Translations under genes and position numbers: made by a program
Shown: one piece after another, positions 2,965 through 22,643 of the stretch
Layout of the letters: the number at the start of each line of letters is the position of its first letter
Numbering within the stretch: position 1 is the stretch's first letter
Notes under the pieces: model-generated
The model's input: the letters and a program-made list of their open reading frames with translations, nothing else
Told to the model about the DNA's origin: nothing
Databases searched by the model: none
Assembly: GCA_016873795.1 (NCBI GenBank)
Contig: VGWA01000006.1
Coordinates: 1-52,261 of the forward strand
DNA from: Ignavibacteria bacterium
GTDB taxonomy: Bacteria; Bacteroidota; Ignavibacteria; Tepidaquicellales; Tepidaquicellaceae
Reading direction: 5' to 3'
Length of the DNA: 52,261 bases

Positions 2965-4295
2965 TTAATTAATGCCATTTTACGTGTTTCGGAATGCACG
3001 ACAGTTGAAGAGTTCGGGTCAGTTACAATAAACCTGTAGAAATAGATTCCCGACGGAAAATTATTTCCGTTCCATTCGGCATAATAGACACCGGGTTGTA
3101 ACACTTCGTTTATCAGAGAGCCGACTTCCTGTCCCAAAGTATTATAAATTATGAGCCGAATAAATCCTCCTCTCAAATCGCTTTTTCCATATCCCGGTAA
3201 CGCAGGATTTTCGAATTTGAATTTTGTAGTGCTGTTAAAAGGATTAGGATAATTCTGATGAAAAACATATTTAGAAGGAATTTCATTCGAGATTTTTGTA
3301 ACGGCGTTTAAAATAAAAAACAACTGCGAAATTCCCCCGTTATCCCTTACTGCAAATGCAATGCACATATACGGATAAAAAATCCTGCCTTTTGCGATAT
3401 GAGTATAGTAACCCGAAGGCGCTGTATATTGAATCATCCAATTATTACCATCATACGAATAATAAATATTATTATCGTTAGACCTTATGCACCAGTATTG
3501 TTCGCCCAAAAATCCTAATCCTAAATAACCAGACATAAGTCCTGTTCCTGGCAAATTAACAAGACTCCAGTTTAAACCTCCGTTATAAGTCCGAAACAAA
3601 TTCACACCTCCCGAGTAACCGGTATTTGTTGAATCAGGTTTAAAATAAACGACGGAAGTAGATGGTGATGAGATAGTAATAGAGTCCCAGTTAATTCCCA
3701 AATTATTCGAATAATAAATCCTGTTATTATTCGTCCCGAACCAAATTTTATTTCCTGTTCCGTAAACGGAATTATTAAAACCGTATTCGTTTCCCGCCTG
3801 AAGAAGCAAGACACCCGAAGAATCCCAGTTTATTCCCCCGTTTGCAGTTCTCCACACAGACCATCTTCCGTCAACCGGATTTCCAATCATACAACCCTGC
3901 ATAGAGTCATTAATATAAATGCCGTTAATAAAACCGTTCGGTTGGCTGAAAACCGTAATCCAGTTCAGACCGCTGTTTGAAGTCCTGTACACATAAGCAA
4001 CGGAATCCAATACACCTGTAACAAGCACCTTATGAGTATCTATGGCGGCAATATGATTCAGCGGGATACTGTCCGGAACACCGTTACCGCCTGCAAGAAA
4101 CCATGAATAACCGAGTTCAGTACTTCTTAAAATTTTTCCGCTGTCACCGCAAATCCAGATATTCTGATGGTAGTAATAAGAAACCGAATTCAATCTTGCA
4201 TTAGTGAGGTTTTGCATTTGATCAATCCAAAAATATTGTGCATACAATGAATTTGCACAAAACAAGAAAACTAAAATTAAAATTTTGGTTTTCAT
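2961..4295 (-). CDS. T9SS-secreted protein with Asp-box/YCF48-like repeats and C-terminal sorting domain
   Basis: The signal peptide is residues 1-20 (ending SLYAQ). The body holds several short repeats of the form (R/Y)(S/T)xxxGxxW, for example TSNSGLNW, TANGGINW and TYNGGLNW, typical of Asp-box/YCF48-like beta-propellers. The last ~110 residues are a sorting domain starting HQNYPNPFNSTTKF and ending with TRKMALIK. Between FENP and the strand IRLIIYN it carries about ten extra residues (including GKSDLRGGF) that are absent from the other sorting domains here. They are encoded by a 49-base element with 7-base inverted ends at 3162-3210. Predicted to be exported and anchored or released at the cell surface; the ligand or substrate is unknown. 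Confidence 0.85.
   Translation of the reverse strand: MKTKILILVFLFCANSLYAQYFWIDQMQNLTNARLNSVSYYYHQNIWICGDSGKILRSTELGYSWFLAGGNGVPDSIPLNHIAAIDTHKVLVTGVLDSVAYVYRTSNSGLNWITVFSQPNGFINGIYINDSMQGCMIGNPVDGRWSVWRTANGGINWDSSGVLLLQAGNEYGFNNSVYGTGNKIWFGTNNNRIYYSNNLGINWDSITISSPSTSVVYFKPDSTNTGYSGGVNLFRTYNGGLNWSLVNLPGTGLMSGYLGLGFLGEQYWCIRSNDNNIYYSYDGNNWMIQYTAPSGYYTHIAKGRIFYPYMCIAFAVRDNGGISQLFFILNAVTKISNEIPSKYVFHQNYPNPFNSTTKFKFENPALPGYGKSDLRGGFIRLIIYNTLGQEVGSLINEVLQPGVYYAEWNGNNFPSGIYFYRFIVTDPNSSTVVHSETRKMALIK
3162..3210. repeat. 49-base element with inverted ends inside a sorting-domain coding region
   Basis: AAATCCT at 3162-3168 and AGGATTT at 3204-3210 are perfect 7-base inverted ends. The sequence between them is translated in frame within the T9SS sorting domain, adding residues including GKSDLRGGF at a loop position where related domains have only about four residues. 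It looks like an interspersed palindromic repeat that inserted without breaking the frame; whether other copies exist in the genome cannot be seen here. Confidence 0.45.
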
Positions 4296-20957: not shown

Positions 20958-22643
20958 TTATTTAATTAATAACATTGATTTTACATCTTTAAAATCTGAA
21001 GTATTCAACTGATAAAAATAAACACCGCTGGATAATCCGCTTCCGTCGAATTTAACTTCATATGTTCCGGGTGTAAGTGATTCGTTCACAAGTGTTGTTA
21101 CTTCTTTCCCGAGGATGTCATACACTTTTAATATGACATTATAATTCCCGAGAAAGCGGGAATCTATAGGAATGCTGAATCTGATATTTGTCGTTGGATT
21201 AAACGGATTCGGATAGTTTTGGAATAATTCAAATTTATAGGGAATCTCAGTATTAATTATATTAATACCGACTGTAAAAAAATCACTGATTCCAAATCCG
21301 CTGTGCCGGACACCTGCAATGTTTATAACCGAAGCAACGGTTGCCTTTACCACATTTGTCATAAACCGGATGTTCAGAGTTCCTACTGTATCACCAGGAG
21401 TATGATAATTATAATTTCTGTATTCTGCTCCGTCGGTAAGCATTAATGCTTTGTATCCGGCATCCCAGAACGGGGCATGATCGCTTCTTCTTAAAAACGG
21501 GGTTGTTTGTCCGTTACCCGGTGTTGAAAGCGACAGCACACGTAGTTGAGGTACATATAATCTGGCACAGCTGTCAAAATGATATCTTAAAGAATTGGAA
21601 TACACATTTGCGGTATTGAGTATGAAATTTCCTTTATTTTGCTGTGCATTGGCACTATCGCAAAGGTCAGGAAATAATGTACAGAATCCAGTCGGCATTG
21701 ACTGACAATTGGGAGTATCGCAATAATATCCTATCATTTCAAAATTATATACACCTGCAATTTTTTCGTAGAAAGGAATTCCTTCGGCAACATATTTTTG
21801 ACTGCCGACTAATCCCGATTCTTCAAGGTCAAATCCGATAAATTTAATTGTGTTTCTGAAATTGTAATTCGAAAGAATTCTTGCAATTTCAAGAAACGCC
21901 GCTACAGCAGTTCCGTTATCATCGGCACCGGGACTAATGCTTACTGTTTCAAAATGACCGTCAATAATATATGTTGTATCTTCATAAATTGTTCCGGGTA
22001 ATCTGCCGATAAAATTCTGTGCATTATAACCCGAGTAATTAAAATTCTGAATAGATGTTTGAAGGTTGTATCTTAAAAATCTTGCGTAAATAGAGTCTTT
22101 TACTCTCTGAAGCTGCTGCACTCCTGCAGTCCTGTGTCTGATTCCTTCTATAAACAGAAGATTTTCTTTTAGTTTATTACTGTCAATCTGATTCACAATA
22201 CCAGAAATATCCATCGGCTGCATATCGTCGGCAATTATTTTTGCCTTTAGCATCACAGGAGTAGTTGTAAAGTACCAGTAAATCTGTTTTTGATACCCCG
22301 AATAAACAGGATAACCGACATCACCCGTGACAGAATCGCAAAGATATAGAAAAGTCTTTCCGCTGTCATTAGAAATCCTCAACGTTACTCTCATCGGGTC
22401 TGAATCGGCATCGTATAAATCGTAGGTTATCTTTACGGCATTTATTAAAGGCATTAAGGTTGTTTGTATGTTGCTGACGACTGGTATCGAGTTTTGAAAA
22501 TTCTGTTCGTTTTCCTTACCTGATTCTTTTAGTATGTTAACATTAGGTAGTAAAGAACTTTGCCGTATTTCGAGTTGCATCGTAAAAAATAAAGAACACA
22601 AAATAAAAATCGGAATTGCGAACAATAAAATTTTCTTTTTCAT
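20958..22643 (-). CDS. T9SS-secreted M28-family zinc metallopeptidase
   Basis: This is a predicted aminopeptidase-like enzyme secreted to the surface. An N-terminal membrane-type signal (residues 4-22) and a ~100-residue Ig-like region precede the peptidase domain. Zinc-site residues by M28 pattern are His230 (GHFET), Asp241 (GADDNGTA), Glu275 with catalytic Glu274 (DLEESG), Glu302 (NFEMIG) and His389 (SDHAPFWDAG). The usual HxD is HxE here, a conservative change. The sorting domain follows (FQNYPNPFNPTTNIRF, ending VKSMLLIK). It carries six to seven extra residues (IDSRFLGNYN) in the loop before VILKVYD, encoded by a small palindrome at 21144-21163. It starts 12 bases before the next cargo gene in the run. 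Confidence 0.88.
   Translation of the reverse strand: MKKKILLFAIPIFILCSLFFTMQLEIRQSSLLPNVNILKESGKENEQNFQNSIPVVSNIQTTLMPLINAVKITYDLYDADSDPMRVTLRISNDSGKTFLYLCDSVTGDVGYPVYSGYQKQIYWYFTTTPVMLKAKIIADDMQPMDISGIVNQIDSNKLKENLLFIEGIRHRTAGVQQLQRVKDSIYARFLRYNLQTSIQNFNYSGYNAQNFIGRLPGTIYEDTTYIIDGHFETVSISPGADDNGTAVAAFLEIARILSNYNFRNTIKFIGFDLEESGLVGSQKYVAEGIPFYEKIAGVYNFEMIGYYCDTPNCQSMPTGFCTLFPDLCDSANAQQNKGNFILNTANVYSNSLRYHFDSCARLYVPQLRVLSLSTPGNGQTTPFLRRSDHAPFWDAGYKALMLTDGAEYRNYNYHTPGDTVGTLNIRFMTNVVKATVASVINIAGVRHSGFGISDFFTVGINIINTEIPYKFELFQNYPNPFNPTTNIRFSIPIDSRFLGNYNVILKVYDILGKEVTTLVNESLTPGTYEVKFDGSGLSSGVYFYQLNTSDFKDVKSMLLIK
21144..21163. repeat. REP-like palindrome inside a sorting-domain coding region
   Basis: ATTCCCG at 21144-21150 pairs with CGGGAAT at 21157-21163 around a six-base loop. 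It is of the CCCGCTTTCTCGGG type common as dispersed repeats in this group. It is translated in frame as part of the insertion DSRFLGNY, at the same loop that holds an insertion in the sorting domain of the gene at 2961-4295. Confidence 0.5.

Follow-up and report, generated by a model that had tools for sequence, protein, structure and literature searches.

Genes and features of the locus

The window, i.e. the whole 52,261-nt stretch analysed here (contig VGWA01000006.1), comes from a source genome of 2.70 Mb in 273 contigs. Two of its genes, P0001 and P0002, encode proteins with a T9SS C-terminal sorting domain (CTD) in which one loop is longer than usual (Table 1).

Table 1. Coordinates of the genes and sequence features discussed in the window
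Feature	Position (nt)	Strand	Description	Remarks
P0001	2961–4295	-	444 aa; YCF48/BNR-like secreted protein with T9SS C-terminal sorting domain	PF14870
Beta2-beta3 loop of the P0001 CTD	3165–3206	-	residues 364–377, NPALPGYGKSDLRG; +10 residues	AlphaFold2 model; length kept in 7/7 relatives
49-base unit with AAATCCT/AGGATTT ends	3162–3210	.		not an element; ordinary coding DNA
P0002	20958–22643	-	561 aa; M28-family peptidase with T9SS sorting domain	PF04389 (105.9 bits) and PF18962 (37.3 bits), both over cut-off
Palindrome ATTCCCG(6)CGGGAAT	21144–21163	.	in frame in the P0002 beta2-beta3 loop; reads IDSRFLGN, 6 extra residues	dispersed-repeat copy, absent from orthologues

P0001 matches PF14870 with 33.8 bits (cut-off 27), has no match to profile PF18962, and reaches only 20.0 bits against TIGR04183, under the cut-off of 23, because the long loop and a C-terminal extension lower the score. 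Counted from NYPNPFN to the C-terminus, its CTD has 97 aa, where 80 is usual. The span from NYPNPFN to LGQEV is 44 residues in P0001, 40 in P0002, and 34 in the seven other CTDs of the window that were caught by the motif search. The seven-stranded sandwich, the NYPNPFN start, the YNxLGQEV turn and the Lys end can all be recognised in sequence and model, and the strands flanking the loop match those of other CTDs, as an earlier note on this DNA had observed. Among 136 distinct CTDs parsed from the source genome, 126 have normal spacing, two have one additional residue and eight have at least four (L043–L062, which had been chosen for longer matches, were used in this census only).

An AlphaFold2 model of the P0001 CTD (120 residues, 46 sequences; mean pLDDT 90.1) has a strand at modelled residues 32–39, a loop at 40–53 and a further strand at 54–60. 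With the strands named in their order after a short first strand, the long loop is predicted to be L-beta2-beta3. A sequence search of solved structures with this domain gave no match at E values up to 1, and a Foldseek search of the PDB gave none at E up to 0.001, the weak matches including PorZ (E 0.015) and PorU (E 0.038) chains. According to passages of PMC11285876, L-beta3-beta4 and the C-terminus are the essential CTD motifs, and the mirolase CTD has an L-beta2-beta3 far exceeding those of PorU and PorZ in length. The two systems are alike in that L-beta2-beta3 is the length-variable loop, and differ in that the same passages describe no DNA repeat.

The 3162–3210 sequence

The earlier note had proposed that a 49-base unit with inverted ends was inserted here without breaking the frame. 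The 7-base ends (AAATCCT, nt 3162–3168; AGGATTT, nt 3204–3210; both within the P0001 gene), the longer loop and the open reading frame are indeed present, but the unit as an entity does not hold up. The length excess over normal CTDs is 30 bases (10 codons), not 49, and since 49 is not a multiple of three, an exact insertion of this size would shift the frame.

A search for further copies, as suggested in the same note, recovered no second copy of the 49-mer in the 2.70 Mb source genome. A 67-base query over the region had one full match in that genome, namely itself, followed by pieces of 19 bases, and the next-best match to the 49-mer in 616 kb of source-genome stretches agreed at 30 of 49 positions. 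The pattern of ends is found at five places in the genome, compared with one for a reversed control; on inspection, the interiors of the five show no relation to each other. Inverted 7-base arms lying 20–50 bases apart number 313 in the window, relative to 267 ± 20 in 40 dinucleotide shuffles; inverted ends such as AAATCCT/AGGATTT are common by chance. The 49-mer folds like its own shuffles (z = -0.06) and forms no hairpin. Short inverted ends in coding DNA are weak proof of an element unless copies and empty sites accompany them.

A GGGGATTTAGGGGG repeat, with a GDLGGF-like reading, was considered as an origin of the 3162–3210 sequence. The GGGGATTTAGGGGG-type pattern occurs outright in two of the 44 genomes of the order; in the source genome it is matched at the 3162–3210 site only, with one mismatch, and GGGGATTTAGGGGG is absent from the 616 kb of source-genome stretches. 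The reading of 3162–3210 as a worn copy of this repeat was rejected for lack of support.

Conservation of the loop in P0001 relatives

In a protein search of 59 genomes, the seven best relatives of P0001 outside the source genome (L065–L071, from seven genomes and belonging to families f1 and f2) gave E values of 1e-105 to 1e-128 and 41–47% identity, at which strict orthology is likely. All seven have the 97-aa CTD and the 44-residue span. Their loops align with that of P0001 without gaps (KLSSSLGGEVRGGY, KLPNSLIGEVRGGN etc.), with R375 and G376 invariant, and their loop DNA is identical to that of the window at only 18–20 of 48 bases. No empty site was found among these relatives, where the earlier note had advised looking for one; the loop is filled in seven of seven, and it is of normal length in more distant relatives. 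Because the same length is kept in all seven over different DNA, the loop is old and has been preserved as protein while the DNA diverged.

These data show that no element was inserted recently at 3162–3210. The absence of copies, together with residues conserved over different DNA, is the very combination that the earlier note had named as contradicting its element. A recently inserted inverted-end element is extremely improbable: it could draw on extra length in the right loop, on the 7-base ends, and on the fact that genuine palindromes do occur in L-beta2-beta3 (see below), but it is opposed by the single copy, the chance level of the ends, the lack of a fold, a length not divisible by three and the sharing of the loop by all seven relatives. 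The sequence is, with high probability, ordinary coding DNA of an ancestral, length-conserved L-beta2-beta3 in a 97-residue CTD subtype, without recent insertion, in a type of loop that is permissive for in-frame palindromes.

A palindrome might nevertheless have entered the loop in an ancestor of the order, and later been eroded and retained, a reading that must be considered rather unlikely. It would account for the loop and the +10 size being shared with inserts of the CCCCTCTCGAGAGGGG type in paralogues L166 and L210, and for the GCGAAGTTCGC inverted repeat retained in relatives L066 and L068. However, the arms in P0001-type loops never exceed 5 bases, the loop matches none of the repeats found, and a CTD-free tree of the P0001 family resolves the relevant forks too weakly for the gain of the longer loop to be dated.

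One other relative, L072, has a normal-loop CTD on a body that groups with those of the long-loop L065–L067 (100/98). This pattern suggests that whole sorting domains may be exchanged between proteins.

A dispersed palindrome in P0002

The palindrome at nt 21144–21163 is the sole match to ATTCCCG(6)CGGGAAT in the source genome, and the same pattern is present in 35 of the 44 genomes of the order with up to 113 copies each (reversed control, 0). Five full-length orthologues of P0002 (63–74% identical) all lack the insert, three having normal spacing and two having three other extra residues. The sequence at 21144–21163 is an in-frame copy of a dispersed palindrome that is absent from the orthologues.

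Most copies lie elsewhere. A set of loci retrieved by palindrome search (L097–L140) contains 51 ATTCCCG palindrome places, some counted twice as the loci overlap, and nearly all are outside long genes; L116 is the single one within the beta2-beta3 loop of a sorting domain. A search of 391 genomes of the class for the palindrome followed by a [YF][DN]xxG turn produced 25 matching rows, spread over 18 genomes. Nine of these rows represent eight in-frame sites in the loop (G000, G004, G027 and G031), and the remaining 16 fall outside sorting domains. Only four of the genomes searched gave an in-loop copy in this way, each of them a member of the order (L116 not counted). The reading DSRxxGN[DY] is common to the nine in-frame, in-loop sites, including 21144–21163 and L116.

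Stem and loop measure 7 and 6 in the window copy, and 8 and 4 in the sister copies L152 and L156. The base triplet after the stem is TAT in the window copy where sister copies have GAC, the triplet of seven of the eight other in-loop sites read there.

Hairpins in the loop across Ignavibacteria

The loop was surveyed in 177 CTDs from loci L065–L093 and L166–L245, which had been fetched by protein likeness and not by their loop. A loop was counted as long if it had three or more extra residues ahead of the YD turn, and a hairpin had to be perfect, with an arm of at least 7 and a gap of at most 6. Perfect hairpins were found in 23 of 42 long loops (the remaining 19 having none) compared with 2 of 135 other loops (Fisher p 2e-15); these counts include near-copies and are not independent events (three at L178; two each at L174, L202 and L210). 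The motif extraction misses atypical CTDs (e.g. L065, L070) and mis-measures L066, L067 and L185, and such rows were either hand-read or left as counted.

Hairpins with an arm of 8 or more have a density of 2.79 per kb in the loop (20 in 7.2 kb), compared with 0.14 in the rest of the CTD, 0.19 in other coding DNA and 1.58 in noncoding DNA, the loop value being about 15 times that of other coding DNA. Long inserts at other positions of the CTD carry hairpins in 0 of 9 and 2 of 22 cases. The palindrome-search loci (L141–L165 and L097–L140) were excluded from the density, long-loop and other-insert counts.

Visual sorting of the hairpin cores of the loop gave about nine types: ATTCCCG(6)CGGGAAT, GAGACGACCCG..GGGTCGTCTC, CCCCTCTCGAGAGGGG, ATTCCGGC..GCCGGAAT, CCCCTCCTTGGAGGGG, GTAGGTCGACGAGGCTCGTCGACCTAC, CCCTCTCCTT..AAGGAGAGGG, CCCCCCTTCGAAGGGGGG and, in the source genome, AAAGTCAGG..CCTGACTTT. 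Copies outside CTDs were found for four of these (ATTCCCG, ATTCCGGC, CCCCTCTCGAGAGGGG and GAGACGACCCG). The other five had no copy outside CTDs within the loci examined, and are known as hairpins, not as dispersed repeats. The survey shows that in Ignavibacteria small palindromes of several unrelated types lie in frame at L-beta2-beta3. The idea put forward in the earlier note, that palindromic repeats can land in this loop and be tolerated there, is upheld by the P0002 palindrome, missing from all five orthologues, and by the in-frame hairpins of other loci, but not by 3162–3210; it is right for those loci, and the unit singled out in the note is no genuine element.

Genomes rich in REPs do not all show palindromes in their CTD loops. 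Genome G014 has 113 ATTCCCG palindromes, and none of the 50 listed lies in a listed CTD. In 400 kb of G032, hairpins were found in none of 25 CTD loops, 130 of 229 hairpins were noncoding, as were all seven ATTCCCG palindromes; G032 does have a loop hairpin at L067.

Origin and spread of the loop palindromes

Palindromes would land at random in the genome, and insertions elsewhere in genes would be purged. L-beta2-beta3 probably points out of the beta-sandwich and lies outside the export signal, and in-frame inserts would survive there because the loop is likely to be free of export function. A copy that keeps the frame and contains no stop could then persist as a hydrophilic loop. From the intact reading frames, we infer that secretion tolerates such inserts. 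With many sorting domains per genome, exchange between genes might subsequently spread some of the copies.

The part played by exchange could be larger, with one or a few insertions followed by spread through duplication and exchange of whole sorting domains. This reading is less likely than not. Position and reading frame are common to all nine ATTCCCG copies, near-identical inserts occur in neighbouring genes (L178, L210, G031:C160), and the combination of a normal CTD with the body type of L065–L067 in L072 would indicate a swap of CTDs. A single insertion, however, cannot explain why about nine palindrome types, unrelated to each other, share this loop.

Formation in place by inverted duplication (template switching), with no insertion of a dispersed repeat, appears improbable as the source of the loop hairpins. 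It would suit the 19-base perfect arms of L045, which extend into the conserved KFKLKSG codons. Against it, copies outside CTDs are seen for the ATTCCCG, ATTCCGGC, CCCCTCTCGAGAGGGG and GAGACGACCCG types, and the AACTAAAGTCA half of L045 is itself a dispersed sequence of the source genome.

Recurrent landing and the history of the P0001 loop can be joined in a broader reading, in which L-beta2-beta3 is a recurrent docking loop for many unrelated dispersed palindromes and the RGG loop at 3162–3210 is an ancient, eroded and conserved product of one of them. This combination is doubtful; if true, it would mean that a conserved stretch of protein has come from mobile DNA.

Comparison with known repeats

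In-frame palindromes within genes occur in Rickettsia and other REP-rich bacteria; here a single loop of one domain brings together several palindrome types that are unrelated. Rickettsia palindromic elements (Ogata, Claverie) are reportedly in-frame inserts in unrelated protein genes, tolerated as surface segments. The palindrome at 21144–21163 resembles them in being in frame and absent from five of five orthologues (one of them 74% identical); the difference is that here the unrelated types share a single domain family. With over a hundred CTDs per genome, numerous filled and empty sites can be compared within one genome, so that it becomes testable which part of the secretion signal is unconstrained and by what route repeats turn into protein. 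Among open PMC articles, no literature was found on palindromes in T9SS sorting domains or on a loop common to unrelated palindromes.

The CGTC-1 REPs described by Di Nocera et al. 2013 (PMC3733652) include Neisseria dRS3 and Rickettsia RPE-6, and passages of that paper also report REPs within ORFs. As far as these passages go, the ATTCCCG repeat is similar in its short stem with AT at the first two positions, in its many genomic copies mostly outside genes, and in the GAC that follows the stem at the in-loop sister sites, which is the TGTC/CGTC tag on the other strand. Where CGTC-1 REPs have a stem of 8 and a loop of 4, the window copy is worn (stem 7, loop 6), and it has lost the tag (TAT for GAC), and the passages name no T9SS sorting domain. 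The 3162–3210 sequence does not belong to this group. The MITEs of Porphyromonas gingivalis are likewise small repeats that accompany genes with T9SS sorting domains; in the passages of PMC4596501 concerned, they adjoin the genes, whereas the palindromes described here are in frame inside the domain.

Other repeats of the loop

A AACTAAAGTCA(GG) sequence is dispersed in the source genome (L013, L015, L026, L042, L045, L052 and noncoding places) in 24 distinct contexts, mostly outside long genes and several in the CTD loop. AACTAAAGTCA was counted seven times in 430 kb, compared with 0–2 times in ten shuffles. In the CTD loop of L045 (G000:C140) the left of the two 19-base arms is itself the conserved KFKLKSG coding sequence, so that the arms look as if an inverted duplication in place might have produced them. 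Shorter forms of this hairpin seem to be present in L013, L015 and L042.

Of the four CTDs at locus L178, three carry the CCCCTCCTTGGAGGGG insert; the insert of the fourth is longer and of another sequence, but ends in the same tail. The long loops of L204, L213 and L092 carry AT-rich, non-palindromic repeats resembling ENGKWKSENG, which are perhaps another type of repeat of the same loop.
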